A DNA stretch of 64,000 nucleotides from Rubrivivax sp. (GCA_027487905.1 JAIYCR010000098.1:1-64000); one strand, 5' to 3'. Counted from the stretch's first letter, positions 40,230 through 56,084 are shown. A program made the numbers and translations. The notes: a model not told the origin generated them from the letters alone.

Positions 40230-43200
40230 TCACGGTGCGGGCTTGGCCAGGATGCGCTCTGGAATTCCTTCGGGAATGACCGTCACCGGTGTCTGCTTGC
40301 CTTGGGTCAGGCGCGCGACGCCCTCCTGCACGAAGGGGCTGAGGCTGCGCGTCGTCACCATGGGCGTCGTCGGCAGCCTGGCCTCGCCTCGCAGGCCAAG
40401 GGTCAGCATCTTGGTGAAGGCGCCATTGCCCCACTCCGTCAGTTCGTAGGACAGTTGCCGGCCCGTGCTGGAGGCAAAGACCGTCACCGCATTCTCGGGC
40501 GCCGACACGGTGTTCGCGAAGCGAGCGGTCTCGTTGGAGTCCCCGCCGAGCAGGCTGGCTGCTCCCCCGGCGAAACAGGTGTCCAGCATCAGCAGCGCCC
40601 GCCCGCGCAGGCCTGCCAGCGGGTGGGCGAACACGGTGCCCGGGATGGCCGTCTGGGTGGGACGCAGGGCGTCGAACTCCCAGGGCAGGAAGTGGTAGCG
40701 ACCATTCGGGTCGTTCACGCCGTGGCCGGCCAGGAAGACCACGCCCGCGTCCCGTTCCGTGACCTGGCTGGCCAGCCAGCGCATGGCCTCCTCGATCGGC
40801 CCGCGCTGAGCCTCGGCATCGGTGAGCACGCGAGCCTGAACGTCCTCGTAAAGCGCGCCCTTCTGCGCGCTCATCACCCGCACGAAGTCGTGGGCGTCCT
40901 TGGCGGGCAGCTTCAGGCGGATCGACGCATCGCGGTACTGCGCCACGCCGATCGCCACGATGAACAGCCGCCCGGCCGGTCCGGACGGCTCCAGCGGCGC
41001 GGCGCCCCGGCGGTCGATCACGTAGCGCAGCGGCTCGGACGACTCGTGCGAGGTTCGCGCCACCAGCTGCAGCAGCCGGCCGGAAGCGGGGGCCTGCACC
41101 ACCACCTCGCCGGCCGCCTGGCCATCCAGCGTGGGCGGCAAGGTCAGCGCCAGAGGCTCCACGAGCTGACCATCCAGACGGGTCTCCACCCGCAGCGTGT
41201 CCCGCGGACGGTCGCTGCGCAGCGAGAAGGGCAGCCGCAGGGGCTCGCCGCTGGCCGCCAGGCGCAGGGCCTGCAGCGGTGCGAGCACTGGCGGCAACTG
41301 GGCTGCGATGGCGGCGGTGATCTGGTCGACGGCCGTCGTGGCGCCGGTCAGCGCGGCACTGGGCGTACTTGGAGGCGCTGGCGGCGGTGACGGGGTCACG
41401 GTCGTCGTCGTGGAAGCAGGCCTGCCCTGCCGGGCCGCGTCCGCAGCTTCGACCGCCCGCTGCGGATCGCGCAGTGCCAGCACCCGGTCGATCACGTCCG
41501 GCCGGTGATAGGCGTCGCGGAAGCGGCCCACCGAGAAGTAGTCGGGCACGTCGCCGCCCGCGCGGTCCACGAGCCAGCCCAGCCGCGACTCCACCCCATG
41601 GCTCGCGTCGTAGTGGCCCGTGGGCATCCACAGCACCCAGCCATCGGCCATGACGAGGGCGGACAGCAGCAGGCTTCCGTCTGCCGCCCGCCACCAGCGC
41701 ACGCTGCCGTCGTTCAGCAAGGCGATCACCATCTGGCCGTCGGCGCTGGCGTTGACCGCCCTGACTTCGGTGGGCGTGCGGACGTCCCACACCACGCGCT
41801 GCTGACGGTCGATGCGTCGCAGCCCTTCACTCGTCGCCAGCACCAGGTCGCCACCGTCGCCGATGAAGGTCAGCGCGCGCGAAATCTCGCCGGTTGCCAG
41901 CGTGAGGCGGCGGCCGGCGACGTCGGGGCGGAAGTGGTCCTCGAAGTTGTTCGCCACTTCCAGGAGGCCCAGCCGAGTGCGAGGCTCGAGCAGGCCGGTC
42001 CTGAGGCCGGGGCCGAGGCGACGCTGCGCCAGCTCGAAGCTCACCGGCGTGCGTGCCTTGCCACGAACCCATCGGATCGTGCCCCCCTCCGCGCTGACCA
42101 GGAGCTCCCGGGCGGCCCGTTGAGCGAAGAAGTCCAGCCCGGCCGGCCCCAGGGTTCTGCCGGTGCCGTCTGCCACCACGCCCCAGGAACCCTCGAAGCT
42201 CGCCCAGACCACCTTCTCCTGCGGCACGCCGCTTCCCGGGGCCGCTTGTCTCACCAGGGTCAGGTCGGTGATGGTGTCCGCGGCGACGCGCTGACTGGCA
42301 AGAAGCGCGCCGGTCAGCGCATCGAAACGGTAGACGCGACCCTCCACTGATTCGGGTCGGCTGGTGGATCCGGCAGTGGTCAGCGTGAGCCCGTCCGAGG
42401 CGAATCGAACGGCCTGCGTGGTGCTGATCGGGTCCGTCGGACGGGGGTCGAGCACGTCATTGGGTGAGCGCAGCCGAAGCAGCTCCCGACCGGTGCCGAC
42501 ATCGAAGACGGCGGCGCCCGCGCCCGCGGTGAAGAAGCCTGCAGCCAGCCGGTCGCCCCGCGGTGACAGGTCGACCGAGAGGATGTCTGCACCGACGGAG
42601 AAGCGCTGGCGAGCCTGGACGCGCTGCCCAGCGGCTCCATAGACGGCCACGGTGCCATCCCGGGCCCCAGCCACGAGTTGAAGGCCGCGCGCGGAAAGGG
42701 CCAGGCAGTCGCCGTCGAAGCGGTCCTCGAACACCAGGGCGCCCGACTGGGTGTCGAACACCCGAAGCGCCCCCGGCTCCGCATAGCACGCGGCCAGCAG
42801 CTGGCCGTCGGCGGTGAAGGCCAGCCGCCGGACATGCGCACCCAGCGCGTCGAGGCGCCGGGCGAACTGCCCGTTGCTGGCGCGGAACATCCAGATGGAA
42901 GGGCCTGGCGGCGAGGCCGTGCTGCCGCTGCCGGCCACGGCGACCAGATCCTCGGACGGGTGGAAGGCTGCGCCGAACAGGCGCCCCGTCCGGGCAGGCC
43001 CGACCGGCGGGCGCAGCACCGCGATCGGACGTCCCTCCGAGAGCGTCCACAGGCGTGCGGTCTTGTCGTCCGACGCCGTGACCACCAGGTCGCGCCCGAC
43101 GTCCACCGCCAGCCGCATGATGGGCGCCGAATGCCCAGGGGCGTTGATCTGCAGCCAGGTGGCCGCCGGGACGCCAACGCCACTGAACACGAGCAGGCCG

Positions 43201-43286
43201 ACGGCGAGGGCCTGAAGCCCGGCGCAGGCGCTGCGCCACAGCGTCCGCCCTGTCACCCACCGTCGTTGTTCGGACCGTCCGCTCAC
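40230..43286 (-). CDS. Beta-propeller/caspase-like peptidase fusion
   Basis: A 1018-residue protein with a single N-terminal hydrophobic segment (signal or anchor, about residues 20-42). The middle (about 45-600) holds WD40-like repeats, e.g. G-H-S-A-P-I-M-R-L-A ... L-V-V-T-A-S-D-D-K-T-A-R-L-W and L-A-A-G-F-F. The C-terminus is a caspase-like C14 domain: catalytic His at about 855 (F-L-A-G-H-G-V-N) and Cys at about 904 (L-M-L-D-T-C-F-A-G-G). It starts at GTG overlapping the stop of the upstream giant lipoprotein gene, so translation is coupled. It is the last gene of the cluster. Substrate unknown. Confidence 0.85.
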   Translation of the reverse strand: MSGRSEQRRWVTGRTLWRSACAGLQALAVGLLVFSGVGVPAATWLQINAPGHSAPIMRLAVDVGRDLVVTASDDKTARLWTLSEGRPIAVLRPPVGPARTGRLFGAAFHPSEDLVAVAGSGSTASPPGPSIWMFRASNGQFARRLDALGAHVRRLAFTADGQLLAACYAEPGALRVFDTQSGALVFEDRFDGDCLALSARGLQLVAGARDGTVAVYGAAGQRVQARQRFSVGADILSVDLSPRGDRLAAGFFTAGAGAAVFDVGTGRELLRLRSPNDVLDPRPTDPISTTQAVRFASDGLTLTTAGSTSRPESVEGRVYRFDALTGALLASQRVAADTITDLTLVRQAAPGSGVPQEKVVWASFEGSWGVVADGTGRTLGPAGLDFFAQRAARELLVSAEGGTIRWVRGKARTPVSFELAQRRLGPGLRTGLLEPRTRLGLLEVANNFEDHFRPDVAGRRLTLATGEISRALTFIGDGGDLVLATSEGLRRIDRQQRVVWDVRTPTEVRAVNASADGQMVIALLNDGSVRWWRAADGSLLLSALVMADGWVLWMPTGHYDASHGVESRLGWLVDRAGGDVPDYFSVGRFRDAYHRPDVIDRVLALRDPQRAVEAADAARQGRPASTTTTVTPSPPPAPPSTPSAALTGATTAVDQITAAIAAQLPPVLAPLQALRLAASGEPLRLPFSLRSDRPRDTLRVETRLDGQLVEPLALTLPPTLDGQAAGEVVVQAPASGRLLQLVARTSHESSEPLRYVIDRRGAAPLEPSGPAGRLFIVAIGVAQYRDASIRLKLPAKDAHDFVRVMSAQKGALYEDVQARVLTDAEAQRGPIEEAMRWLASQVTERDAGVVFLAGHGVNDPNGRYHFLPWEFDALRPTQTAIPGTVFAHPLAGLRGRALLMLDTCFAGGAASLLGGDSNETARFANTVSAPENAVTVFASSTGRQLSYELTEWGNGAFTKMLTLGLRGEARLPTTPMVTTRSLSPFVQEGVARLTQGKQTPVTVIPEGIPERILAKPAP

Positions 43287-46200
43287 TGCCAGGCGCCATT
43301 CGGTCGGGCGATCAGCACGCCGCCCGGGAGGGTGATCGCGAGCGTCCCTCGCGCTTCGTCGACCCAGGCGATGTCCCGCGGGAAGCGGACAGCCCCGGGC
43401 AGCGCGCCGGCGATGGACGCGGCCGTCCCGTTGCCGACCACCGTCGTCACCACGCCGTCGGGCGTCATCCGCCGGATGCGGTGGTTCTCGGTGTCGGCGA
43501 TGAAGAGGTTGCCGCTGCCGTCGATGGCCAGTCCATCGGGAAAGCGGAAGCGCGCACTGCTGCCGGTCGCGTCCACCATGCCGGGTACCCCTGCGGTGCC
43601 CGCGATCGTGGTCACCCCGCCGGTACCCAGCGCGATCCGCCGGATCGTGTGGTTGTTCGTGTCGGCGACGTACAGCAGGTTGCGTGACACGTCCACCGCG
43701 ACCCCGCGGGGCCCATGGAAGCGAGCCGCCGCCCCGGTGCCGTTCGCGCTTCCAATGGACAGAGCGGTACCCGCCACGGTGGACACGCCGGTGGTCAGCG
43801 AATAGAGCCGGATCACATGGTTGGCTGTGTCCGCGATGTACGCGTTCCCATTCGACAGCGCAGCGACCCCCCGCGGTTCGTTGAACCGACTCGCCGAAGC
43901 GGTGCCGTTGGTCGATCCGCTCGTGCCGACGATGCCCGCGAGCGTGTCCACGGTGCCGGCACCGACCTGCAGCCTTCTCAGCGCGTTGCGGTCGGTGAAG
44001 TAGATCGTTCCGCCGCCAGTCCCGGGAAGGGCGCTGAAGCCGTTCACGTCGGTGAAGGTGGCGCCTGCCAGGGCGAAGTTGGGGGCACCTGGGCCGGCCA
44101 GGGTGGAGACGTTGGCTCGATCGCTGATGAAGCGCACGAGGCCGCCCGCGCGGTCCATGACGATCAGGTCCTCCGCGCTGAAAGGCACGATCCCGCGAGC
44201 CTCCTGGAAGCGAGCGGCCGTACCCAGGCCATTCACCGGTGTCGGGGAGCCGGTGGTTTCAGTGGTTCCCGCCAGCAGACTCAGTTGCCCCGCAGTGCCG
44301 AGCACCAGCGATCGGGCACGGACCCTCTGGGTCAGGAGGGTTCTGGGAGGGCTGGCCGTGTCCGTGACGACGAGGTCGATCTCATCGGCCACATTGTCGA
44401 TCTGCACCGACCAGGTCGAGACCTCGGGCAGCGTGTTCCTCGGAAACTCCCGACTCTCATTGACCGTCACCGTCGGCACCGGCTGGGTGCCGACTGCACC
44501 GGGCGACGAGACGTTCACCACGGTGAGGCGAGCCTGTGCGTTCTCGACCACCACCTGATTCCACCGGAGCTCCAGAACCAAGGGCGAGATAGAGCTCGCC
44601 AGCGATCTGACGCTGCTCGACAGCCGAAGCGGAAGTGCGCCGGTTTGAGGTGTTCCGTCCGCATTGAACTCGGTCGAGTCCGAGCACCAGGTGTTGCCTC
44701 GATCGCTCCCGGCCGAGCCGCCCGTGCCCAGGGGATCTTCCGCAGGGCTCTTGCCCGTTCCGGCATTGCAGGCCCGGATCGTGTAGCTCACCCCGGCCGT
44801 CGTCGGCAGCAGCACCCGGTACTGAGACTGGGCACGGGCGACGATCTCGTTGGACAGGCGGGTGAGGTCGTTGGTGGTCTGCGAGCTTCTGCGAATGACC
44901 TGGTAGTAGCCGACATCGCCATTGAGCCCGGTGCCGGCTGTGGTGTGCCCGGTCCAGCGCAGCTCCAACTGACCGTTCGAAACCCGGGCGGAAAGGTTGT
45001 TTGCGCTGGTCCACTGCGGGACTGCCCCCGGTGCTCCCGCGGCCCCCGCCGAGCCGCCATCGCCGGAGGAGCCGCCGCCCGTTCCATCACCCCCCGCCCC
45101 CCCGCCGAAGTCGAAGGTCAAGGCGGCGTCGAAGAGGGTGGAGACCGAGGTGTTCTGCTGCAAGGTCTTCTGGGCCTGGTCCCGTGCGGTGCCTGCGGCG
45201 ACCTGTGCGGCGATGGTCCCGGCGGTGCCAGCGGGGACGTTGATCACGGCGCGCCAGGTTCGGGCGTCCAGTTGGCTGAAGCTCGCGACGCTGGCACCTG
45301 TGGGCAGGGTGAAGGCCACCGAACTCTGGCTGAAACCGGTGACGGGCTCGCTCCATTCGAAGCGCAGCCCGACTTGCGTGTTGCCTGTCAGGCCGGTGTT
45401 GTCCGTGCTGATGGAAAGCGTGGGCGGCGCCAGGTCGGTGTTGAAGGCGACTGGGGCGCTGCTGCTGGCGGCCGGCGGGTTGCCGAAGAGATCGCGCACG
45501 GCGTCGACCGAGATGCTCGCGCGCAGGCTGCCCACCGCATCGGCGGGTGGTGTGACGACGAGCCGGTAGACCGTGTCGGAGACCTGGGTGAAGGCGCCCC
45601 GGGTTCCCCGGTCCAGGCCCACCGCGTCGGGCCCGAAGCCGGTGACGGGTTCGGTCCAGGTGAAGCTGAAGCTGATGGGCCCGGTGGCCGTGCCGGCGGC
45701 ATCCGAGGCGATGCTGACCTGGGGCGGCACCGAGTCCACGGTGACGCTGCGGGTGGTGGGCGAGGTGGTGTTGCCCGCGCCGGTGACGAAGGTGGCCGAG
45801 ACGGTGACGCTGCCCGCAGTGGGCCAGGCGGCGGTGGGGACGTTCAGGCTGAAACTGCGGTCGGCGCCTGCGACCACGGTGCCGGTGAAGCCGGTGCCGC
45901 TGCCCGTGGCCGGCAGGGAAATGGTGACGGTGCGGCCGGCTTCGGAGATGGAGCCGCGCACGGTGACGCCAGCGCCCGCGCTGCGTTCGGCGGCGTTCAG
46001 CCGGTCGTCGCCAGAGATGGGGGCGAGCGTGAGGATGCCCGGGCCGATGGGCGCGACGCTCAGCTCGGAGGCGGCTGTGACCTGGCGTGCCCCGGTGCCG
46101 TCGGTCTGCCAGCGGGCGTTGTCGGTGGTGGCCGTGGCCAGGCGGGCCTGGAAGAGGCCGGGGAAGTCGCGCTGGGCGCTGCGGGTGGGGGGCAGGCCCT

Positions 46201-48175
46201 GCAGTCGGGTGGGTGCCTGAGCGGCCAGCACGGCGTCGGGCTGGCCGGCGGTGCCGGGCACGACGGGCGAGCCCCAGAAGAAGACGGCGCCGTCGCGGTC
46301 GACGGCGAGGAAGCCCTGGCCGGCGCTGGCGATGGAGACGATGCGGGCGAGGCCGGGCACGGCGGCGGCGAAGCCGCGGGAGGCGCCGGGCGCGCCCAGG
46401 GCGCCGAAGCGGTTGTCGCCCCAGGCCCAGACGCTGCCATCGGCGCGCAGGGCGGCCATGGCGGCGTCGCCTGAGGCAGGAACGACGGCGGCCAGTGCGG
46501 AGACCGAAGTGAGGGCTTGGCCACCGGCCTGTTGAACTGCGGCTGGCAGAGCTTGGGTGGCGGCGGCCGTGCTGCTGCGGCCGAGCGCGTCTGCCCCGCT
46601 GCCGAAGCCGAGGATCGTGCCGTCGGCCATCAGCGCGTAGGACAGATCCCCGATGGCAAAGACGCTGCGCACAGAAGTGAGGCCTGCCACACGCTGGGGC
46701 GTGGGGGATGTGCCGAGCGAGCCGAGCTGCCCACCACTGCCGTCACCCCAGCCAAGCACGCCGCCGTCGGCCATGCGGGCCAGGCCGTGGGCGCGACCCA
46801 GGGCGATGGAGCTGGCGCCTCCCAGGGCGCTTACTTCGGTGGGCGCTGCAGCGTTGACACCCAGCCCCAGGCCGACCAGGCCGCTGCCCCCGCCCTGCCC
46901 GAGCGCGAAGATACGGCCATCCTCGGCCTGCAGGAAGACGGCCGTGGCGGGCGCTGTACCCGCGAAGAAGCTCTGCACGAAGCGGCCCGGCCAAGCGGTG
47001 CCGGGGCTGCCGTCGGCGTTGATGGGTGCGGCATGACCGTCGCGGCCGAGCCGCACGGCGGCCGGGGTACCGCTGGTCTGTCCGAGTGCGGCCAGTCCCA
47101 GGGTGTCGGGCAGACGTTCCGTCAGTGTGGCGGACGCTTGGCGGCGAGCGGCGACCGAGAGCGCTGCATCCAGGGCACTGGCCAGACGACCAGGGTCGTA
47201 AGCGGCGGCGCCCGCCGCCGCCACCGAAGCACCTGAGGGGTCCAGCCCGTCCACGCGACCGTCGGCCGCATCGCGGGCGATCTGGCTCGCCACGGCCAGC
47301 GCGGGCGAGGCGAGGCCCGGGTTGTAGAGCGCGGCCTGGGTACCCAGGCCGAGCAGGGCGAGGGTGTAGCGGTCGCCGGCCCGGTCGGCGAGCAGACCCG
47401 TAGGGGGGGATGCAGTGCCGACCAGGGCCGGCACCTGCAGCAGCGAGACGATGCCCAGGTTGGTGGGGAAGAGGGCCTTGTAGGGGCCATCCAGCACCCG
47501 CTGGTGGGCAGCGTTGATGACCGCAGCCGCGGGCAGGGCAGGGCCTGCGGCGAGCGCGCTCAGGCGATCAGCCGCCGTGGCCAGTGCGCCGGCGTCGACC
47601 ATGGTCGTGGGTGGCCCCAGAAGCTCCCGCGCGGCAGCCTCGGTGAAGGGGGTGACACCGATGTTGCGGTCGAGCATGGGCACGAGCGCGCGCAGCGTCT
47701 CGGTGGCCGGGATGGGCAGCGTGACGGGTGCGCCCGGGCGGCTGGCATCCACCGTGGTGGCCGTGGTCGATCCGGTGACGGTGACCAGGAAGGGGCCAGG
47801 AGCGCCGCAGGCGGTGAGCGTGGCTCGGCCATCGGGGCCGGTGAGGGCCTCGCCGATGGAGGAGCCATCGGCGCGGGAGACGGACACCCGCGCGCCCACG
47901 ATCGAGCCGCCGCCGAGCGTGGGTGTGATGCCCACACCGCCCTGGCCGTCCGCACCCGTGCCGAAGCCGCTGGCCGGCAGCACCCAGTCGGACGAGCCGG
48001 AAAAGGCGCTGCCCACTGCGGGCGTGCACGACGAAGCGGGTTCGGGCCCTGGGCCGCCGCAGGCCGCGAGCGCGACGACCAGCATCAGCGCAGAGGCCTG
48101 GACGCAGGATTTCAGCCCCCCCAGGCGGGCAGGCCGGGCGGTCGGGTGGGTATTGTCGAGGGTCATGTCGTGCAT
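43283..48175 (-). CDS. Giant lipoprotein with RCC1-like, Ig-like and NHL repeats
   Basis: A 1630-residue surface lipoprotein. Lipobox V-A-L-A-A-C at residue 39. Residues about 420-660 carry RCC1-like units (D-G-x-x-x-x-W-G-D-G/N), about 700-1060 two Ig-like units (V-D-S-V-P-P-Q-V-S-I, S-E-P-V-T-G-F), then a Gly-rich linker and a fibronectin-like part. The last 300 residues are NHL repeats such as A-R-F-x-x-P-x-G-V/L-A-V/I-D ... I-A-D-T-x-N-H-x-I-R. Both propeller types are binding platforms. It overlaps the downstream caspase gene by 4 bp and follows the small caspase gene after 27 bp. Start may be 48175 or 48166. Confidence 0.85.
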   Translation of the reverse strand: MHDMTLDNTHPTARPARLGGLKSCVQASALMLVVALAACGGPGPEPASSCTPAVGSAFSGSSDWVLPASGFGTGADGQGGVGITPTLGGGSIVGARVSVSRADGSSIGEALTGPDGRATLTACGAPGPFLVTVTGSTTATTVDASRPGAPVTLPIPATETLRALVPMLDRNIGVTPFTEAAARELLGPPTTMVDAGALATAADRLSALAAGPALPAAAVINAAHQRVLDGPYKALFPTNLGIVSLLQVPALVGTASPPTGLLADRAGDRYTLALLGLGTQAALYNPGLASPALAVASQIARDAADGRVDGLDPSGASVAAAGAAAYDPGRLASALDAALSVAARRQASATLTERLPDTLGLAALGQTSGTPAAVRLGRDGHAAPINADGSPGTAWPGRFVQSFFAGTAPATAVFLQAEDGRIFALGQGGGSGLVGLGLGVNAAAPTEVSALGGASSIALGRAHGLARMADGGVLGWGDGSGGQLGSLGTSPTPQRVAGLTSVRSVFAIGDLSYALMADGTILGFGSGADALGRSSTAAATQALPAAVQQAGGQALTSVSALAAVVPASGDAAMAALRADGSVWAWGDNRFGALGAPGASRGFAAAVPGLARIVSIASAGQGFLAVDRDGAVFFWGSPVVPGTAGQPDAVLAAQAPTRLQGLPPTRSAQRDFPGLFQARLATATTDNARWQTDGTGARQVTAASELSVAPIGPGILTLAPISGDDRLNAAERSAGAGVTVRGSISEAGRTVTISLPATGSGTGFTGTVVAGADRSFSLNVPTAAWPTAGSVTVSATFVTGAGNTTSPTTRSVTVDSVPPQVSIASDAAGTATGPISFSFTWTEPVTGFGPDAVGLDRGTRGAFTQVSDTVYRLVVTPPADAVGSLRASISVDAVRDLFGNPPAASSSAPVAFNTDLAPPTLSISTDNTGLTGNTQVGLRFEWSEPVTGFSQSSVAFTLPTGASVASFSQLDARTWRAVINVPAGTAGTIAAQVAAGTARDQAQKTLQQNTSVSTLFDAALTFDFGGGAGGDGTGGGSSGDGGSAGAAGAPGAVPQWTSANNLSARVSNGQLELRWTGHTTAGTGLNGDVGYYQVIRRSSQTTNDLTRLSNEIVARAQSQYRVLLPTTAGVSYTIRACNAGTGKSPAEDPLGTGGSAGSDRGNTWCSDSTEFNADGTPQTGALPLRLSSSVRSLASSISPLVLELRWNQVVVENAQARLTVVNVSSPGAVGTQPVPTVTVNESREFPRNTLPEVSTWSVQIDNVADEIDLVVTDTASPPRTLLTQRVRARSLVLGTAGQLSLLAGTTETTGSPTPVNGLGTAARFQEARGIVPFSAEDLIVMDRAGGLVRFISDRANVSTLAGPGAPNFALAGATFTDVNGFSALPGTGGGTIYFTDRNALRRLQVGAGTVDTLAGIVGTSGSTNGTASASRFNEPRGVAALSNGNAYIADTANHVIRLYSLTTGVSTVAGTALSIGSANGTGAAARFHGPRGVAVDVSRNLLYVADTNNHTIRRIALGTGGVTTIAGTAGVPGMVDATGSSARFRFPDGLAIDGSGNLFIADTENHRIRRMTPDGVVTTVVGNGTAASIAGALPGAVRFPRDIAWVDEARGTLAITLPGGVLIARPNGAWQ

Positions 48176-48202
48176 CGCCTTGCTTGCTGGGCCGCTGCGG
48201 CC

Positions 48203-49120
48203 TCACCGGGTGCGGGCCAGGTCCACCGCGAGGCCTGAACGCGCAGGCTCGCAACGGCCCTGCGGGCCCGGTACCAGGCAGTAATCGCCGACCAGGCTGC
48301 TGGTTTCCCAGGGCACCTGCCGGTTCGAGGTCTCCCGGGCCACGGCCGTGCGCACCCGCTTGAACAGGGCTTCCACGGGCACTCCCACATCGTCCAGCGC
48401 TGCGGCCAGGTGCCGGGTGTAGACGCTGTTGCCCAGCTTGCCGCCGTCCTCGGCGACCGACCCGGGGGAGGTGGCGAAGGCGATCAGCGTTCCCTGGGGC
48501 TGCGGACCGGCGCGCAGCCCGGGCGCCAGCCAGCCGGACACCGATCGGGCGCCGCCGGCGCCCACGGCGCGTACCGGAAACGGCTGGTTCCGGCAGGCAT
48601 CCAGCACGAGGATGTTCACGCCTTGGGGAAAGCGCGACAGCTGTTCGCCGACCTCGCTGATGTCCAGCCCCTGACGCGGGACGTCGTCGACCGAAGCGAT
48701 GTCGGCGTCGATGGGCAACAGGTAGTTTCGACCCCGCCATTGGGAGCCGTGGCCGGCGAAGTAGAAGAACCGGCTGGCCGCGTCGCGGCCGTCCATCAGC
48801 CACTGACGCAGGCCCGAGCCCAGGCGTTCGCGGGTGGCGTCCTCCAGGCGGGTGACTTCGAAACCGATTCGCTCCAGCGTCTGGGCGACCAGCCGCGCGT
48901 CGCGCACCGCGTTCTGCAAGGCGGCCAGCGGGTAGGCCGCGTTGCCCACGACCAGCGCCGAGCGCCGGGCCGAACCCGGCACGCCGGCCAATCCCGGGGT
49001 CTGCGCGCGCGCCGCCGGCGCGGCGCGGCCTCCCGCCAGCGCCACGAATGCCGTGGCGGCGGCAAGCCGCAACCAGGGCCGACGCCGCAGGGGTTCGTGG
49101 AGCGTGCCGTCCATCGTCAC
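48203..49120 (-). CDS. Caspase-like (C14) peptidase
   Basis: A 305-residue exported caspase-like protein. After a signal region (A-A-A-T-A-F-V-A-L-A-G-G ... A-R-A-Q) the p20-like domain starts with R-R-S-A-L-V-V-G-N-A-A-Y. The dyad is complete: His at 124 (F-A-G-H-G-S-Q) and Cys at 176 (L-V-L-D-A-C-R-N-Q). The end has G-D-Y-C-L-V-P. Start is GTG (49120) or ATG (49114). It follows the anti-sigma gene after 3-9 bp. Substrate and target unknown; location probably periplasmic. Confidence 0.85.
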   Translation of the reverse strand: MTMDGTLHEPLRRRPWLRLAAATAFVALAGGRAAPAARAQTPGLAGVPGSARRSALVVGNAAYPLAALQNAVRDARLVAQTLERIGFEVTRLEDATRERLGSGLRQWLMDGRDAASRFFYFAGHGSQWRGRNYLLPIDADIASVDDVPRQGLDISEVGEQLSRFPQGVNILVLDACRNQPFPVRAVGAGGARSVSGWLAPGLRAGPQPQGTLIAFATSPGSVAEDGGKLGNSVYTRHLAAALDDVGVPVEALFKRVRTAVARETSNRQVPWETSSLVGDYCLVPGPQGRCEPARSGLAVDLARTR

Positions 49121-49123
49121 GCC

Positions 49124-49798
49124 TCAATGCTCGGACCGGACCGGACCGGGTTCGATGGACGAGGTGGCGACGGCCGGGTCGGCGCGCAGGCGCTGCTGCA
49201 CCAGGGCCAGATCGTCCGCGGAGCCTGCCAGCGGCGCGAGCCGGTACTCGCCCACGGGGTTGGGTCCGGCGACGATCTCCAGCCCCTCGCGACGAAGCAG
49301 TGCACGCAACGCGGCCTCGCTGATGCCGTCACGGAACATCACCCGCAGATGAGGGCTCGGGTTGACGGCAGGAGCCGCCGAGGGCGGGGCGCCCGAGCGG
49401 AGCAGCCGATGCTCGGCCTCGACCGATGGGTCGGACAGAAGCGACGCGATGACGACCGCCTGGACCGCGACCACACCGGCAGCCAGCGCCAGTGGCGGCG
49501 TGAGCCAGCTTCGAAGGGTGTCGAGCCAGCCCGACCGGGTGTCCGGTGCGGCCTGTGCGGGCCGCGTGGACGAACGACGGTCGGCCCGCAGCAGTCGCTC
49601 CAGGTGCTGGCCGCCGGCGTCCACCGGCGAGCGATCCGCCTGTTGCCGCACCGATTCCCGCAGCCGCAGGGTCCAGCGCATCTCGCGCTCGAGATCGGGC
49701 GCACCGTCCATCAGCCTGGCCAACGCCGGCCCGGGCCTGTGCGACGGGTCGGTTCCATTGACGATGAAGGGCAGGTCCGCTGGGTCGGGCAGGCTCAT
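49124..49798 (-). CDS. Probable anti-sigma factor (membrane, no Zn motif)
   Basis: A 224-residue protein whose ATG overlaps the sigma gene stop (ATGA). The N-terminal about 100 residues are cytoplasmic and charged, one TM segment follows (about 103-125: L-T-P-P-L-A-L-A-A-G-V-V-A-V-Q-A-V), and the C-terminal about 95 residues are periplasmic (L-R-V-M-F-R-D-G-I-S-E-A-A-L-R-A-L-L). No Cys, so the zinc anti-sigma motif is absent. Position, overlap and one-TM layout suggest an anti-sigma factor; sequence alone does not prove it. Confidence 0.65.
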   Translation of the reverse strand: MSLPDPADLPFIVNGTDPSHRPGPALARLMDGAPDLEREMRWTLRLRESVRQQADRSPVDAGGQHLERLLRADRRSSTRPAQAAPDTRSGWLDTLRSWLTPPLALAAGVVAVQAVVIASLLSDPSVEAEHRLLRSGAPPSAAPAVNPSPHLRVMFRDGISEAALRALLRREGLEIVAGPNPVGEYRLAPLAGSADDLALVQQRLRADPAVATSSIEPGPVRSEH

Positions 49799-50394
49799 GA
49801 CAAGGCTCCCTGAGGCGACGCGCGGGCCACGCTCGCCTCCACGCACGCCCGTACCTGAGACCTTGCATGGAAGAGCCGGGTCTTGACCGTTCCGTTCGGT
49901 ATGCCCTGCAGGTCAGCTACGTCCTGCACTCCCAGGTCCTCGAAGTACACGAGGTGCAGGCACTCGCGGTGTGCCGCACTCAGCCGGTCGATGCACCGTC
50001 GCAGCAAGGCCGCGTCCTGGGCTTGCTCGAGCAGCGACTCCGCGATCGGTGTCTCGTCCTGCAGCACGTCGGCGTGCTCGTCCAGGTCGTCCTCGTTGCC
50101 CGGTCGACGGCGCAGCTCATCGAGCATCCTGAACCGGGCCACACCCAGCAGCCAGGTGCTGAACTTCGATTCGCCCCGGTAGGCCCGGGGCTTTTTCCAC
50201 ACTTCGAAGAAGGTGTCGCCCGTCACGCTGTCGGCGATGGCTTCGTCGCCGCAGCGGTGCAGCACGAAGGCGTGGACCCGGCGTGCGAAGAGCCTGTGCA
50301 GCTCGCGAAGCGCGACTTCGTCGCCGTCGGCCATCCGGTCCAGCAGCGCCTTGGCACGGGCTTCGTGGGGATCGAGCGTCTGGCGGGAGTTCAT
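49795..50394 (-). CDS. ECF-type RNA polymerase sigma factor
   Basis: A 199-residue ECF sigma factor. Region 2 is D-T-F-F-E-V-W-K-K-P-R-A-Y-R-G-E-S-K-F-S-T-W-L; region 4 has L-S-A-A-H-R-E-C-L-H-L-V-Y-F-E-D-L-G-V-Q-D-V-A-D and the HTH end G-T-V-K-T-R-L-F-H-A-R. It is tightly coupled to the probable anti-sigma gene. It sits in the middle of the 12-gene cluster, so it may autoregulate the cluster, but its target promoter is not identified. Confidence 0.93.
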   Translation of the reverse strand: MNSRQTLDPHEARAKALLDRMADGDEVALRELHRLFARRVHAFVLHRCGDEAIADSVTGDTFFEVWKKPRAYRGESKFSTWLLGVARFRMLDELRRRPGNEDDLDEHADVLQDETPIAESLLEQAQDAALLRRCIDRLSAAHRECLHLVYFEDLGVQDVADLQGIPNGTVKTRLFHARSQVRACVEASVARASPQGALS

Positions 50395-50419
50395 GGCGGG
50401 GAATGGCGGAGTGACCGGT

Positions 50420-51052
50420 TCAGGAGACGATGCGGAACTGCACGCGGCGGTTCGACGGTGCGGTGGGCAACAGGCCGTCCAGTGGTTCGACCGACCCTTT
50501 GCCGATGGGCTGCAGCCGCGCCGGGTCGATGCCGTGTCGCTCCACGAGCGTGCGGAAGACCGTCATCGCCCGCTCCCAGGACAGCATCAGGTTGCGGTGG
50601 GCGGCGCCTGAGGCGTCGGTGTGGCCTTCGACCGTCAGGCGCAGCGACGGGTCCTGAGCCATCAGCTGCGCGATGGCATCGACGTAGGCCGCTGCGTTGC
50701 CGCTCAGCCGGGCGCTGTTGGCCTCGAAGCCGATGGGCAACGCAACGGCGGGGCCGGTCGCCGACGCGGCGGTCGTTGCGGGCGCGCTGGCCGCGGCGTT
50801 GGCAGCGTTCGCGGCTTCCACAGGCGTGCTGCCCACAGCCGGGTTGGCGGCCCAGACGATGCCCCGCGACATCGGCGCATCGGCCTGGGTGGGCGCCTTC
50901 GCGGCGGGTGCGGACTCGCGCTGGAGCGCCGCTCGCAGCTCGGCAACGCTGGGCACGCCCTGGATCACGGCCACCTGGGCGTTCGCGGACAGGGCGCTGC
51001 CCATCAGGACGAGCGTCAGCGCGGCAATGGGGGGCAGACGGTGTGCAGGCAC
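50420..51052 (-). CDS. OmpA-like peptidoglycan-binding protein
   Basis: A 210-residue exported protein with signal peptide (I-A-A-L-T-L-V-L-M-G-S-A-L-S-A-N-A-Q). A low-complexity Ala-rich middle leads to an OmpA-like C-terminus: L-P-I-G-F-E-A-N-S-A-R-L, V-E-G-H-T-D-A-S-G, N-L-M-L-S-W-E-R-A, and P-S-N-R-R-V-Q-F. The GTG start has AGGAG upstream. It may anchor the surface structure of this cluster to the cell wall. Confidence 0.85.
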   Translation of the reverse strand: MPAHRLPPIAALTLVLMGSALSANAQVAVIQGVPSVAELRAALQRESAPAAKAPTQADAPMSRGIVWAANPAVGSTPVEAANAANAAASAPATTAASATGPAVALPIGFEANSARLSGNAAAYVDAIAQLMAQDPSLRLTVEGHTDASGAAHRNLMLSWERAMTVFRTLVERHGIDPARLQPIGKGSVEPLDGLLPTAPSNRRVQFRIVS

Positions 51053-51100
51053 GGTGGGACTCCTCGGTGAGCGGGGCCTTCAAGCGCAGGTACGCAAAGC

Positions 51101-52054
51101 TCAGTTGTTGCCGATGCGGGTGTTGCTCTTGCCCAGCAGCCCGGCCTGGCCCTGGACAACGCCGCCCACGGACACATCGGTCTGGCCGGAGCTCGCATTG
51201 CCGATGGCCACGGTCTGGCGATTCAGCGCGCCGCCTTGTCCCTGCACCACGCGGCCCACCTGAACCCGGCTGGACCCGGAACCGCTGGCATTGCCAATCC
51301 TGGCCGTCTGCTGATTGAGCGCACCGGCCTGGGCCTGGGTGAGCGAGCCGATGCGAACGTCCGAACGCGCCTGTCCGCTGGCGTTGCCGACCTCAGCGCG
51401 CTGGCTGTTCATCGCACCGGCCTGCGCCTGCGTGACCGAGCCGGCGTTCACCCGTGCACTGGACTGCCCGGAGGCGTTGCCGATGTCTGCGGTCTGCCGG
51501 TTCAGCGCGCCCGCCTGCAGCTGCGTCAGCCGCCCGACGTGGGTATGGCTGCTGGCATTGCCTGACGCATTGCCGACCGCCGCCTGCTGGCGGTTCAGCG
51601 CGCCGGCTTGGACCTGCTGCGCCGAACCCACGGAGGCGTCGCTTCGACCTTGACCGCCTGCGTTGCCCACTGACAGGGTCTGGTCGTTCAAGGCACCGGC
51701 TTGCACCTGCAGGGTGCTGCCCACCCGGCTGCGCGCACTCGCGCTGCCCGCGGCGCTGCCGATGTCCGAGCGCTGACGGCTCATCACGCCCAGCTGCACC
51801 TGCGTGCCGGACCCGCTGCGGGCATCGGTGGACGCGTTGCCCTGGGCATTGCCGATAGCGGCGCGCTGGTCCGAGGCAACGCCCAGCTGCACCTGCGTGG
51901 CCTGTCGCAGCTCGGCATTGCTCTCCTGGGCCGGCGTCGCGGTGCCCAGGGCTGCCAGCAACACCGCCAGGCCCAACCTCAGCACCCCGGGATCGGCCGC
52001 GACGCTGGAAGCCGGATTCGCCCGGACCGGCAGGATGGATAGCGCTGCATTCAT
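51101..52054 (-). CDS. Long curlin-like repeat protein
   Basis: A 317-residue secreted protein. After a signal (A-V-L-L-A-A-L-G-T-A-T-P-A-Q) it is nearly all repeat: eight full 31-residue units and a partial ninth with the consensus V-G-S-x-x-Q-V-Q-A-G-A-L-N-R-Q-T-A-x-I-G-N-A-S-G. The first two units are more diverged. The Q-x-Q-x-G-x-x-N-x-Q-x-x-x-x-G-N pattern resembles curlin repeats, which stack as amyloid beta-strands. No Cys. ATG with AAGGAG upstream. It shares its repeat design with the short protein at 55274-55720; it could be a minor subunit or a nucleator. Confidence 0.75.
   Translation of the reverse strand: MNAALSILPVRANPASSVAADPGVLRLGLAVLLAALGTATPAQESNAELRQATQVQLGVASDQRAAIGNAQGNASTDARSGSGTQVQLGVMSRQRSDIGSAAGSASARSRVGSTLQVQAGALNDQTLSVGNAGGQGRSDASVGSAQQVQAGALNRQQAAVGNASGNASSHTHVGRLTQLQAGALNRQTADIGNASGQSSARVNAGSVTQAQAGAMNSQRAEVGNASGQARSDVRIGSLTQAQAGALNQQTARIGNASGSGSSRVQVGRVVQGQGGALNRQTVAIGNASSGQTDVSVGGVVQGQAGLLGKSNTRIGNN
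51104..51913 (-). repeat. 93-bp coding repeats of the long curlin-like gene
   Basis: Eight full and one partial copies of a 93-bp unit, in phase with the coding frame. Conservation is strongest at the codons for Q-A-G-A-L-N-x-Q and G-N-A-S-G and weak in the eight or nine residues between them. Confidence 0.85.
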
Positions 52055-52085
52055 CGATATCTCCTTGGTCCGGCCATCGCCGGGT

Positions 52086-52838
52086 TCAGCCGCCGCACTT
52101 GACATCCCCGCTGCCCTGGCCCTGGCGGGTCAGGGCGGGCCGGCCCTTGCATCGAACATCGCCCGAACCGTCCAGCGAGAGCGTCAACGCCCGGGCGTCG
52201 ACCCAGGCATCGCCGCTGCCGGCGCTTCGCAGGGTGAGCTGTTCGACGGCGAGGTCCGACGCGTGGACGTCGCCGCTGCCCGTCAGGCGCATCGCGGCCA
52301 GCCTGGCCGTGCCGGCGAGCCGCACTTCGCCACTCCCCGATGAGTCGAGCTGCAGCTCGGAAAGGTTCAAGCCGCGGGCCAGCAGGTCCGACGATCCACC
52401 GACCCGCAGTGCCAGTCGATGCGACCGCAGGGCCGTCAGGACCGCGCTGCCGCTGGACTGCAGGCTCAGCCGCTCGAGGGTGGCGAAGCCCAGGGACATC
52501 AGCACCGGCGCGCGGGTCTGGAAGCCGCTGGCGGCCAGGCGCAACTCGCCCGCGACCGTGCTGACCTTCAACGCGTGCAGGACGGCGGGTTCGGCGCTGA
52601 CGCTCAGGCGGCCCGATTCGGCCGGCCGGAGCCACAGCTCGGCGGGAAGCTCGCACAGGACAGCGGAAAAGCTCAGTCCATCGAACACACGCTGCGCGAC
52701 GGCGGGCTGGCCTGACTGCGCCGCCGCCTTGCCTGACCGGCTCGACAGACCCCAAGCCGTCATCGCCCCGGCCGTGGCGATCACGAACCGGCGCCGAGTG
52801 CGCGACGGCTGGCTGCCCGTTGAGGATTCAAGGCGCAT
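52086..52838 (-). CDS. DUF2807 (GIN-domain) exported protein
   Basis: A 250-residue exported protein with a Tat-type signal (T-R-R-R-F-V-I-A-T). The rest is a right-handed beta-helix-like repeat with G-S-G-x-V/A motifs (S-S-G-S-A-V, S-S-G-S-G-E-V, T-G-S-G-D-V, G-S-G-D-A-W), typical of the putative auto-transporter adhesin head GIN domain, DUF2807. The start overlaps the preceding gene by 11 bp. It may coat or cap the surface fibre, which is inference. Confidence 0.8.
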   Translation of the reverse strand: MRLESSTGSQPSRTRRRFVIATAGAMTAWGLSSRSGKAAAQSGQPAVAQRVFDGLSFSAVLCELPAELWLRPAESGRLSVSAEPAVLHALKVSTVAGELRLAASGFQTRAPVLMSLGFATLERLSLQSSGSAVLTALRSHRLALRVGGSSDLLARGLNLSELQLDSSGSGEVRLAGTARLAAMRLTGSGDVHASDLAVEQLTLRSAGSGDAWVDARALTLSLDGSGDVRCKGRPALTRQGQGSGDVKCGG

Positions 52839-53250
52839 CGGGGTTCTCGATCAGGCACAGACCACTCTTGAGATCGAGCACCTGAACGGCGATCTGCCGG
52901 GACCGCGTGGAGCGGAAGTCCAGCGGCGTGGTGCTGCGCGCGGCGGGCGTCAGGCCGGACCCCTCGTAGACGAGACGGCCCTCCTGGAAACAGCGCAAGG
53001 TCGGTTCGCGCCGCTCGCCCTTGCGCGCGGACAAGACCGAGGCGTCTGGGCGGCGAGTCGCGGCCTGCGGCGAGGTCGTCGAGGCATCGACGGCCAAGTC
53101 CAGCCCGGCGTTCGCCACAGGCGGAACCAGCAGGATCAGCCAGGCACACAGGGCCGATGCGTTGACACCGCGCCTTTGGCGAGCCGAGCCCGGGACAGGG
53201 TGCGACGAGTCGCGGCGACGGGCGTCGGTCGATTCAGCGTGCAAGGACAT
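52828..53250 (-). CDS. Small secreted protein of unknown family
   Basis: A 140-residue protein. A hydrophobic segment N-A-S-A-L-C-A-W-L-I-L-L-V-P-P-V-A-N-A-G serves as a signal. The mature part has two Cys (L-R-C-F-Q-E-G-R-L-V-Y-E and G-L-C-L-I-E-N) that could form a disulfide in a small beta domain. Its start overlaps the CsgG-like gene end by 17 bp and its end overlaps the DUF2807 gene start by 11 bp, strong evidence that it belongs to the operon. The role may be like a small curli accessory protein, but no similarity is claimed. Confidence 0.6.
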   Translation of the reverse strand: MSLHAESTDARRRDSSHPVPGSARQRRGVNASALCAWLILLVPPVANAGLDLAVDASTTSPQAATRRPDASVLSARKGERREPTLRCFQEGRLVYEGSGLTPAARSTTPLDFRSTRSRQIAVQVLDLKSGLCLIENPDAP

Positions 53251-54838
53251 CGAGCACCCCCATGTCCGGGTTGGATCCCGAGCGTTGCGCCAGCTGCTGG
53301 CGCAGCGCGTTCACTTCCTGGATGCCCGCCCCGGGGGCGAGCGCCTGCGGGCCCAGGTCGCGTTCGGTGCGAAGGCAGGCGATCGTCTCGGTCACACCGG
53401 CCTTGCTGGCCAGGATCTGAAAGCCGAACCCGCCCGGGAATCGGATGCGCGCGCCGGCCGGCACCGCAGCCGTGGGCCGCGAAGGGTTGGGGTAGAACTG
53501 GGTCAGGCGGCGCTGGTCATCCAGCAAGAAGCAATACAGAAAGCCGGCGCTGCTCACGGCCACCTCGACCTCGACTGGCTCGCCGCGCCGGTGCACATGC
53601 GCCGGGCCGCGGACATTGGCCACGGCGACAGCCGATGGCGTGCCAGGACCGGCCGACGGTGGCGGTGGTGGTGTTGACACGGGCGCCGGCGTTGCTGCCG
53701 CGGGGCTGGCTTCGGCCGTCTGCAGCTGCTGAAAGGCGGCGGCGGCCAGCTTGTCCGTTCTCGAATGGTCCGAGCCGAGATAGGCGCGAAAGAACTCGAG
53801 ATCCAGGTTCAGGTCCGGCTTGAGCCCCACGGCCTGCTTCCAGGCGCGCACCGCACGTTCAAGCGCGGGATTGAGCTGGCCATCGACTTCACCCGTGTAC
53901 AGGTTGCGGGCGCCCATCTGGATCTGCAGCCAGCTCACGAGCGAGGGGACGTCACCCCTCAAGGTGTCCCACCAGTCCTCGATCTCGAGCGACACGTTGG
54001 TGTCGGCGTCCGTCAGTCCGAGGCAGGTCCAGTAAGGGATCTTGAGCAGTCGGCCGTACAACTCGATCGCGCTGAGCTCGACGAGCGCACGCAGCGCCTG
54101 CCCCTGCCCGTCGCTGCTGGTGAAGGTGAAGTTGTACTGGACCCCGAACTTCTGCAGGCTCAGGTCGCCATCGAAGCCCCGCCCCCTCCTGCGGATGAGC
54201 ACATAGTTCTTGGAGGTCACGCCGGGCAACAGGGTGAGCCCTTCGAGCTCGATTAGGCTGAGGTCCAGGCTCATGCCGGAGAAGGCATCGGATTCCGCGG
54301 CGCCCAGGCAGAGCGGGCCCAGGCAGATGCCGCCATCGCGCTGCTTGCGAAGCGTCGTCTCGTCGAACTGCGACACCGAGCCCTGCACGGCGAAGCTCGC
54401 GTTCTTGATGACGTCCTCGCGGCCTGCGGCCACCGCGCTGCCCGCGACCCACGGAATGAGCCGCACCGCACGGCTGCCGCGGGTCATGGCCGAGGTGGCC
54501 GAAGTGAACATCTCGCGCGCCCCGGCGCGGACCTTCTGCGTGGCGTCGGGGATGTCCTCGACGACCACCGCCACGTTGCGGGCGCCATAGGTGCGGAACA
54601 GGCCGTCCATGCAGCGGATGGCGCTGGCAAAGCTCGTGACATTGGCCCGGGGCGGACCCGCGCTCGGCCCGACGCTGGCCTCGACGGCCTGGCGGCGGAA
54701 CTCGTCGACCGAAGCCGGGCGGCTGCCCGCGGCCGAAGCGGGCGCCAGGCCCTGTCCCATCGCGAGCAGCGGCAGGCACAGGGCCGTGGCCAGCGCAACC
54801 GCACAGCGCCGAAGAAGAAAGCTCAGGAGCCTGCGCAT
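53234..54838 (-). CDS. CsgG/HfaB-like protein with PG-binding and DUF4384-like domains
   Basis: A 534-residue exported protein. The first 300 residues have the CsgG/HfaB layout: I-R-C-M-D-G-L, R-N-V-A-V-V-V-E-D-I-P-D-A-T, F-A-V-Q-G-S-V-S-Q-F-D-E, D-L-S-L-I-E-L, and the C-terminal helix A-L-R-A-L-V-E-L-S-A-I-E-L. CsgG is the outer-membrane pore for curlin. Then come a peptidoglycan-binding-1-like piece (L-Y-T-G-E-V-D-G-Q-L-N-P-A-L), a Pro-rich linker and a DUF4384-like domain (F-L-Y-C-F-L-L-D-D ... F-Y-P-N-P). The signal has no proper lipobox, unlike CsgG. GGAG precedes the ATG. Confidence 0.7.
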   Translation of the reverse strand: MRRLLSFLLRRCAVALATALCLPLLAMGQGLAPASAAGSRPASVDEFRRQAVEASVGPSAGPPRANVTSFASAIRCMDGLFRTYGARNVAVVVEDIPDATQKVRAGAREMFTSATSAMTRGSRAVRLIPWVAGSAVAAGREDVIKNASFAVQGSVSQFDETTLRKQRDGGICLGPLCLGAAESDAFSGMSLDLSLIELEGLTLLPGVTSKNYVLIRRRGRGFDGDLSLQKFGVQYNFTFTSSDGQGQALRALVELSAIELYGRLLKIPYWTCLGLTDADTNVSLEIEDWWDTLRGDVPSLVSWLQIQMGARNLYTGEVDGQLNPALERAVRAWKQAVGLKPDLNLDLEFFRAYLGSDHSRTDKLAAAAFQQLQTAEASPAAATPAPVSTPPPPPSAGPGTPSAVAVANVRGPAHVHRRGEPVEVEVAVSSAGFLYCFLLDDQRRLTQFYPNPSRPTAAVPAGARIRFPGGFGFQILASKAGVTETIACLRTERDLGPQALAPGAGIQEVNALRQQLAQRSGSNPDMGVLDVLAR

Positions 54839-54862
54839 GGGGAACTCCGGCGTCCGGGCGCT

Positions 54863-55186
54863 TCAGCGGCACTTGGCCGTGTTGTAGACGTTGCCGGTCA
54901 CGATGACCGTCTTGTTGCGCTCGGCGATGCGGTTGGAGCCGCGCTTGTCGTCCGCCGCATTGCCGATGTCCACGTTGCCGCAGTTCTCGTCGCCGCCGGG
55001 CTTGCGCCCGCCCGACTTGTCATTGCCCGAGCGCCGCTGCTTCAGGGTTTCCTTGGCAAGCGTGGCGCGGTCCTTGTCGTCGATCTCCAGCGCGTCGGCA
55101 CGCGCCGAACGGGCCTCGGACGCGGTGGCGCCAAACGCCAGCAGGCTCGCCACGACAGCCAGGCGCGCCAGGGGAAGTGCAGTCAT
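54863..55186 (-). CDS. Small Asn/Gly/Cys secreted protein
   Basis: A 107-residue secreted protein of no known family. The signal is L-A-R-L-A-V-V-A-S-L-L-A-F-G-A-T-A-S-E-A. The mature part is rich in K, R, D and G, with an N-terminal R-x-x-A-L-x-x-D-D-K and a C-terminal half E-N-C-G-N-V-D-I-G-N ... V-I-V-T-G-N-V-Y-N-T-A-K-C, where two Cys bracket N/G-rich beta segments. The G-N turns resemble the repeats of its neighbours. GAGG precedes the ATG. It may be an accessory or minor fibre component. Confidence 0.6.
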   Translation of the reverse strand: MTALPLARLAVVASLLAFGATASEARSARADALEIDDKDRATLAKETLKQRRSGNDKSGGRKPGGDENCGNVDIGNAADDKRGSNRIAERNKTVIVTGNVYNTAKCR

Positions 55187-55224
55187 GACGGAACCTCGTG
55201 TTGCTGGGGTGAAGCCCGGCGCAA

Positions 55225-55264
55225 CCCGGCGGCCCGTGCGGCGGGGAGCGCACGGGCTGCCGGG
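55225..55264 (-). promoter_or_regulatory. Long stem-loop between first two genes of the cluster
   Basis: Left arm 55225-55240 and right arm 55249-55264 pair as six base pairs, one G-T wobble and nine base pairs, with an eight-base loop. This is a 16-bp stem in the 87-bp gap between the short repeat gene and the next gene. There is no following T-run. It may act as a partial terminator or RNA-stabilising hairpin that leaves more message for the first gene. Confidence 0.65.
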
Positions 55265-55273
55265 TATGGCCGA

Positions 55274-55720
55274 TCACTTGGAGGTGTTGCCCACGTTCAT
55301 GGTCTGGGCGTTCTGCGCGCCGCCCGCCTGGACCTGGGTCACCCCGGCCGCCTTGACGTTCGACTGCCCCGCCGACGCGTTGCCCATGTTGAGCGTCTGC
55401 TTGTTGTTCGCGCCCCCGGCCTGGACCTGGGTCACGCCCTTGGCGTCGACGTTGGACTTGCCGCCGCCCGACGCGTTGCCCATGTTCATCTGCTGCGTGT
55501 TGTTCGCGCCGCCGGCCTGCACCTGGGTGACGCCGGCGGCCTTCACGTTCGACTGGCCCGAGCCCTGCGCGTTGCCGATGTTGGCGGTCTGCTTGTTGTT
55601 CGCGCCGCCGGCCTGCACCTGCGTGCCGCCCTTGAGATCGACGTTGGACGTCTGGGCGTGGGCCATGCCGGCGGCGGCAACGGCGATCAGGGCAGCAAGC
55701 AGTTTGGAGGTGGTGTTCAT
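55274..55720 (-). CDS. Short curlin-like repeat protein, likely major subunit
   Basis: A 148-residue secreted protein: signal L-L-A-A-L-I-A-V-A-A-A-G-M-A-H-A-Q, then four repeats of 31-32 residues with consensus N-V-x-A-x-G-V-T-Q-V-Q-A-G-G-A-N-N-K-Q-T-x-N-x-G-N-A-S-G. The Q-x-G-G-x-N-N-x-Q spacing resembles curlin. No Cys and few charged residues in the core, as expected for a functional amyloid. It is the first gene of the cluster and is followed by a stem-loop, consistent with high expression. Not a certain CsgA homologue. Confidence 0.75.
   Translation of the reverse strand: MNTTSKLLAALIAVAAAGMAHAQTSNVDLKGGTQVQAGGANNKQTANIGNAQGSGQSNVKAAGVTQVQAGGANNTQQMNMGNASGGGKSNVDAKGVTQVQAGGANNKQTLNMGNASAGQSNVKAAGVTQVQAGGAQNAQTMNVGNTSK
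55277..55645 (-). repeat. 93-96-bp coding repeats of the short curlin-like gene
   Basis: Four copies, two of 96 bp, one of 93 and a truncated last. They are much more alike at the DNA level than those of the long repeat gene, suggesting more recent duplication or gene conversion. Confidence 0.85.
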
Positions 55721-56084
55721 GATCAGGATTCCTGGTTTCGGCCCGTGGACGGTGTTCGATGCGGGCCGCAAAGGCATCGAACCGGTGGTGACATGAATGA
55801 GTCGTGCCACCGCGCCGTCAGGTTCAAGGAACCGGCGAAAAAGGAATCGGAGCGCCTGAAGGCACGCTCACCACAGGTCTGGCCAAGGCGCGGGGGCGAC
55901 GTGGTTGTCCCACCCGCCACCGGCACGGGAATCCTCAACTTGAACGAAAGACCCCCTGTTTGAGGGGCTATCAACACATCGAAGGTGATCGATCCAATGA
56001 TCAATGGCGGATCAATCCGGATTCACCGCGATTCGGATCGCCCTTGCAAAAAGGCAGGCGAACAGGCGAGAGGATCCCGATCCC
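55721..56084. promoter_or_regulatory. 364-bp gap upstream of the fibre cluster
   Basis: No convincing gene. The stretch is less GC-rich than the rest of the window, especially 55960-56060. It holds a perfect dyad GGTTC-AAG-GAACC (55821-55833), and three direct repeats of GATC(C)AAT at 55991, 55999 and 56010. It must contain the promoter of the 12-gene cluster on the minus strand and the end of the permease operon. I found no clear sigma-70 or ECF promoter. Confidence 0.5.

Follow-up and report, generated by a model that had tools for sequence, protein, structure and literature searches.

The window, the whole stretch of DNA analysed here, comprises 64,000 nt of Rubrivivax sp. (GCA_027487905.1 JAIYCR010000098.1:1-64000), and the cluster covers positions 40230-55720 on its minus strand. 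Twelve intact open reading frames, g1 to g12, lie on this strand from 55720 down to 40230. They are separated by gaps of 87, 24, 48, 25, 3 and 27 bp, while the other junctions are overlaps of 4-52 bp. The measured junctions confirm a preliminary description of twelve minus-strand genes with gaps of at most 87 bp, and Pfam identifies the OmpA, DUF2807, sigma factor and two caspase-domain proteins that it had named. The features are listed from the 5' end of the cluster.

55951..55968, minus strand: terminator-like hairpin that sets the cluster apart from the ABC-transporter genes on its 5' side (consensus scan, weak evidence alone)
55798..55827, minus strand: promoter-like element TTGAACC-N16-CGACTCA, 5' of g1 (exact match)
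55274..55720, minus strand: g1, secreted repeat protein, 148 aa, 31-32-residue repeats with QxGxxN (repeat analysis)
54863..55186, minus strand: g2, small secreted protein, two invariant Cys, C69 and C106 (family alignment)
53234..54838, minus strand: g3, CsgG-fold pore with PG_binding_1 and DUF4384 (Pfam for the latter two; fold and hhalign for CsgG)
52828..53250, minus strand: g4, small secreted protein, two invariant Cys, C87 and C132 (family alignment)
52341..52370, minus strand: second promoter-like element TTGAACC-N16-CGACTCA, inside g5 and 5' of g6 (exact match)
52086..52838, minus strand: g5, DUF2807 protein with RR-type signal sequence (Pfam, E 2.6e-26)
51101..52105, minus strand: g6, secreted repeat protein, 334 aa, 31-residue repeats, predicted beta-solenoid (repeat analysis and AlphaFold)
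50420..51052, minus strand: g7, OmpA C-terminal domain protein with signal peptide (Pfam, E 1.1e-16)
49795..50394, minus strand: g8, ECF sigma factor, sigma-70 r2/r4 (Pfam)
49124..49846, minus strand: g9, anti-sigma factor with one membrane segment (about 114-140), a zf-HC2-like N-terminus and a protease-prodomain-like C-terminus (domains)
48203..49120, minus strand: g10, caspase-domain protein (Peptidase_C14), intact His-Cys dyad, export signal (Pfam and motif check)
43283..48175, minus strand: g11, 1630-aa lipoprotein with RCC1, Ig-like (Big_12) and NHL repeats (Pfam); accessory, lineage-specific
40230..43286, minus strand: g12, exported WD40 propeller with caspase domain (Peptidase_C14) (Pfam); occasional member

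Third-position GC is high in all twelve genes. The flanking genes are unrelated to the cluster, with ABC transporter permeases on the same strand on the 5' side and, as read by eye, a DsbA/FrnE-like gene on the 3' side. Signal sequences are visible by inspection in g1-g7 and g10-g12. By the same reading, g5, g10 and the g10 relatives have signals that resemble the twin-arginine type. Five proteins (g1, g2, g4, g6 and g9) have no significant Pfam family. A consensus scan detected no sigma-70 promoter inside the cluster.

The pore protein and the secreted repeat proteins

The Pfam CsgG profile does not reach its threshold on g3 itself and is matched weakly by 5 of 19 g3 homologues, with a best E of 0.0017. 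An hhalign comparison of the g3 family with E. coli CsgG gives E 7.8e-7 at a probability of 92. CsgG chains make up all of the top 24 PDB matches of the AlphaFold model in Foldseek, with E down to 4e-8. The model is of modest overall confidence (pLDDT 77, pTM 0.58) and contains the long strand pairs 149-173/176-197 and 202-228/231-242 that are expected of CsgG. Judged by its modelled fold, the N-terminal half of g3 is a CsgG domain that is remote in sequence. The earlier assignment of g3 as a CsgG-like export protein therefore stands as far as the fold is concerned, with a clear match, but the identity is remote and Pfam CsgG is silent on g3. A lipobox is present in 63 of 72 members of the g3 family and absent from the g3 of the window. 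In a curated survey of curli systems, most Pfam CsgG matches fell outside curli systems and were considered probable paralogues that form part of a larger family (PMC3521004). The pore family was thus already known to be wider than curli; the present system is not described there.

Both g1 and g6 are rich in Gly, Asn and Gln. The motif QxGxxN is carried by most repeat units, within a longer unit of roughly SxVxxxxIxQxQxGxxNxQxxxIGNA, and recurs at a spacing of exactly 31 residues in g6 and 31-32 residues in g1. Six copies are found in g6, compared to a mean of 0.35 and a maximum of 3 in shuffled sequences. Dueholm et al. (PMC3521004) give X6QXGX2NX10, which contains this motif, as the minimal repeat of curli; in several relatives of the window's proteins the motif is altered or absent. 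AlphaFold predicts a regular beta-solenoid with two strands per rung (pLDDT 84, pTM 0.84). At the level of motif and spacing, the repeats are thus curlin-like, as the preliminary description had proposed. This likeness does not extend to homology: curlin PF07012 has no match in g1 and g6, in their relatives or in the whole genome of the window, hhalign of the repeats against CsgA and CsgB gives no match, and a PDB profile search reveals no curlin homology. Since Foldseek finds no significant match between the solenoid and the solved curlin (best E 0.29), we go no further than to suggest that the repeats may be amyloid.

Repetitive proteins beside the pore gene are not restricted to the window. 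In relatives, the open reading frame just 5' of g2-g3 is usually repetitive and belongs to one of several classes with periods of 31-39. Under a strict periodicity cut, a frame with strong periodicity (30-40 aa) lies just 5' of g3 in 37 of the 60 loci that were eligible, compared to 2 of 1679 control frames, one of them encoding a further solenoid protein at the same locus. The repeat proteins reach 460-1600 aa in some loci. Arenicella-type loci (L098:3308-9456, L109:7930-9336) encode very large upstream repeat proteins of up to 1629 aa with a period of 37, whose sequence class differs from that of the window.

The genes g2 and g4 encode small secreted proteins. In most loci g2 adjoins g3, and the g4 family shares the motif RCWQxGRL, which reads RCFQEGRL in the window. 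Searches of both proteins against PDB, and of g2 against Pfam, returned nothing credible. Their identification as CsgE and CsgF was rejected, as hhalign against these two proteins gave no match.

These data bear on whether the cluster is simply a divergent form of the canonical curli operon (type VIII secretion). The CsgG fold of g3 and the minimal curli repeat in its neighbours would fit such an origin. However, CsgE and CsgF are found in none of the 19 g3-bearing genomes (the E. coli control was positive), curlin PF07012 occurs in 2 of 200 genomes, neither of which bears g3, the profile comparisons with CsgA/CsgB and CsgE/CsgF are null, and the repeat period is 31-39 rather than about 22. 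Given that curlin profile, CsgE and CsgF are all lacking in the tested genomes, we conclude that this is not a canonical curli system, and we regard the diverged operon as quite unlikely. A polysaccharide-adhesin anchor like HfaA/HfaB/HfaD of Caulobacter, in which the CsgG-like protein exports anchor proteins instead of a fibre, would account for a CsgG-like pore accompanied by OmpA and peptidoglycan-binding domains, and HfaB is indeed thought to export HfaA and HfaD (PMC5362036). No polysaccharide genes are present among g1-g12, though, and the size of the largest repeat proteins also speaks against anchor proteins; this alternative appears unlikely.

Conservation of the gene set

Homologues of g3 are present in 21 of 399 genomes of the order. 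The repeat family, detected by profile, is found in 8 of the 399, all of them among the 21 with g3 and all with the repeat gene adjoining g3; as the profile was built from these same loci, the informative part of this result is the absence elsewhere. A genome scan, for which a tight 8-sequence profile was used instead of a loose 19-sequence one, yielded 71 named loci, mostly in Betaproteobacteria and some in Gammaproteobacteria. The conserved order is repeat gene, g2, g3, g4, g5, repeat gene, OmpA, sigma, anti-sigma and caspase. It is seen in distant Betaproteobacteria and is near complete in, for example, L061, L064, L068 and L069 (OmpA there, but beyond the caspase gene).

The last two genes behave differently. 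Only one relative of g11 (L095) is found in the 71 loci, and close relatives of g12 are occasional (L061, L095). With g11 almost private and g12 occasional, the conserved unit is g1-g10. The twelve-gene system of the preliminary description is thus upheld for g1-g10, which recur in order, and not for g11 and g12, which lie outside the core. That the gene set might be missing from other genomes, which would have spoken against a joint system, is contradicted by the 71 loci. The set is conserved in many environmental Beta- and some Gammaproteobacteria and is undescribed: in open-licence papers, we found no description of this gene combination or of the function of this CsgG group.

Sigma factor, exported caspase and promoter-like element

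The proposed pairing of an ECF sigma factor with a probable anti-sigma factor is borne out. As expected of this class, g8 has sigma regions 2 and 4 only and is linked to a membrane anti-sigma gene. Within the g9 family, zf-HC2 is matched in 10 of 17 members and a fervidolysin-prodomain-like domain in 3. From these matches in relatives and the single membrane segment, we take g9 to be an anti-sigma factor whose periplasmic domain resembles a protease prodomain. In g10, the p20 domain and His-Cys dyad of Peptidase C14 (orthocaspases) are present, and the catalytic motifs AGHG and DAC are kept in g10 and in all relatives at the same position. The fervidolysin-prodomain-like periplasmic domain, in the C-terminal third of the anti-sigma factor (window 49124-49846), beside an exported caspase is an unusual pairing. 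It is plausible that this prodomain-like end makes g9 a candidate partner of the caspase.

The sigma/caspase block is often not adjacent to the rest: across the loci there are 33 sigma genes, and for 20 of them a caspase gene lies no more than 2.6 kb away. In some loci the nearby sigma gene is a different one or is missing. In Acidovorax-type loci (L100, L103, L106, L107), a sigma gene lies directly 3' of g3 without element, anti-sigma or caspase gene, apparently a second regulatory arrangement.

A promoter-like element was first noticed as TTGAACC-N15-GCAAC 5' of repeat genes in several lineages. Its family form, TTGAACC-N15-GCAAC-NN-A, also written TTGAACC-N15-GCAACNNA, is associated with repeat genes, OmpA genes and the sigma/caspase genes in different lineages. 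A strict search of 1.16 Mb of locus DNA gave 32 matches with a spacer of 15, compared to 0-4 for each of the other spacer lengths between 10 and 21. Outside the discovery set fall 21 of the 32 sites, which precede OmpA, anti-sigma/caspase, DUF2807 and second repeat genes and a few other genes. Position 29 is A in 39 of 39 aligned sites, which are partly dependent as some genomes are related, although this position was absent from the search pattern. Genome-wide, in 16 genomes with element-bearing loci, 32 of 42 matches lie inside cluster loci. Genes for OmpA proteins of the g7 type have their own element upstream in other genomes.

The variant in the window agrees with the family element in the -35 half and the invariant A, whereas its -10 half departs from the consensus (CGACTCA versus CAACCCA). 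With up to 1 mismatch allowed, the 4.35-Mb genome contains exactly two sites, both exact. As the query was derived from these sites, what is informative here is that the single additional copy belongs to the same cluster. Two Aquabacterium genomes lack a sigma gene of this kind at the g3 locus and have the element at unlinked loci: before OmpA and a g3 paralogue in both, before a sigma-anti-sigma-caspase operon in one, and before unrelated genes at one further site per genome. At L158:15905 (minus) and L159:15883 (minus) of Aquabacterium, the element is followed by the g3 paralogue and a lytic-transglycosylase-like gene. At L052:13095 (minus) and L053:13272 (minus), it precedes a very short secreted Cys-containing frame of about 60-70 aa, MSLSFRKTTCLMISTLLLAVGMAGAHAAYSPRVTK..., a possible extra member of the regulon. 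At the level of sequence, the cluster thus has a promoter element 5' of its own operon, as ECF regulons do. The element shared by its members supports the self-regulation put forward in the preliminary description and turns it from a conjecture into a testable regulon.

Two further explanations can be weighed at this point. A caspase-based cell-death or anti-phage cluster, with pore and repeats as effectors or bystanders, is suggested by the two caspase-domain genes and by the PADLOC 'caspase' profile, which matches g10 and g12. PADLOC is null for the other proteins tested, so that the profile stands without known defence partner genes, and a defence system was rejected. The export signals visible in the caspases and the element that links the caspase gene to secreted repeat and OmpA genes point away from it as well, and we give this reading the least credence. 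Two or more unrelated transcription units, placed side by side by chance, would explain why g11 and g12 fall outside the core and why the sigma/caspase block can be unlinked. They would not explain the same order in distant lineages, the 8/8 co-occurrence of the repeat family with g3, or an element common to the members even when these are unlinked; a chance assembly is very improbable.

Proposed system and comparison with known systems

The best explanation, and in our view a reasonably probable one, is that the cluster encodes a system for secretion and surface assembly that belongs to the CsgG family and has an ECF regulon of its own. In such a system, g3 would form an oligomeric CsgG-type outer-membrane pore that additionally carries its peptidoglycan-binding domain and DUF4384, and would export g1 and g6, which, once outside the cell, would adopt a beta-solenoid fold and probably form fibres. 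The small proteins g2 and g4 may act as accessory factors in the places held by CsgE and CsgF in curli, g5 may be a surface partner, and g7, together with PG_binding_1 of g3, could fix the assembly to peptidoglycan. Transcription of the operon would be driven by g8 from TTGAACC-type promoters, with g8 held by the membrane anti-sigma factor g9. The exported caspase g10, encoded right after g9, would most likely act in the periplasm on g9 or on secreted substrates, and could so couple transcription to the state of assembly. The fibre and the proteolytic arm put forward in the preliminary description are conjectural parts of this model.

More speculatively, the loci may represent a distinct CsgG-dependent class of surface-assembly system, widespread in Beta- and some Gammaproteobacteria, in which the exported caspase acts on the prodomain-like membrane anti-sigma factor, and the secretion state thereby controls beta-solenoid fibre genes through TTGAACC-type ECF promoters. 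We hold this full version to be possible but doubtful.

The conserved association of a CsgG-type pore and repetitive secreted proteins with a dedicated sigma factor, anti-sigma factor and caspase suggests a second, separately regulated route to curli-like surface material, which, if true, would operate in environmental bacteria. One non-curli CsgG branch gains candidate substrates, candidate accessory proteins and a sequence-defined regulon. For exported bacterial caspases, a group with few known roles, the anti-sigma factor becomes a specific candidate partner that is directly testable.

With E. coli curli (CsgA-G), the system shares a CsgG-fold pore, secreted QxGxxN repeats and small accessory proteins beside the pore gene. 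It differs by the missing curlin profile, CsgE and CsgF, by the repeat period of 31-39, by the fusion of the pore to PG_binding_1 and DUF4384, by the two repeat genes that flank the pore gene, and by the ECF/anti-sigma/caspase control. Caulobacter HfaA/HfaB/HfaD likewise combine a CsgG-type protein, HfaB, with exported surface partners (PMC5362036), but here no polysaccharide link is seen and there is an own sigma regulon. Neisseria MafA, a secretion protein reminiscent of CsgG, offers an earlier example of a CsgG-like lipoprotein that oligomerises and secretes a substrate other than curli (PMC7738311). In contrast to the present system, the substrate of MafA is a polymorphic toxin. We know of no such repeats, sigma factor or caspase in the MafA system. 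The g8/g9 pair resembles other pairs of ECF sigma factor and membrane anti-sigma factor in its overlapping genes, zf-HC2-like domain, single membrane segment and element 5' of its own operon, and is set apart from them by the protease-prodomain-like periplasmic domain of the anti-sigma factor and the exported caspase gene that follows.
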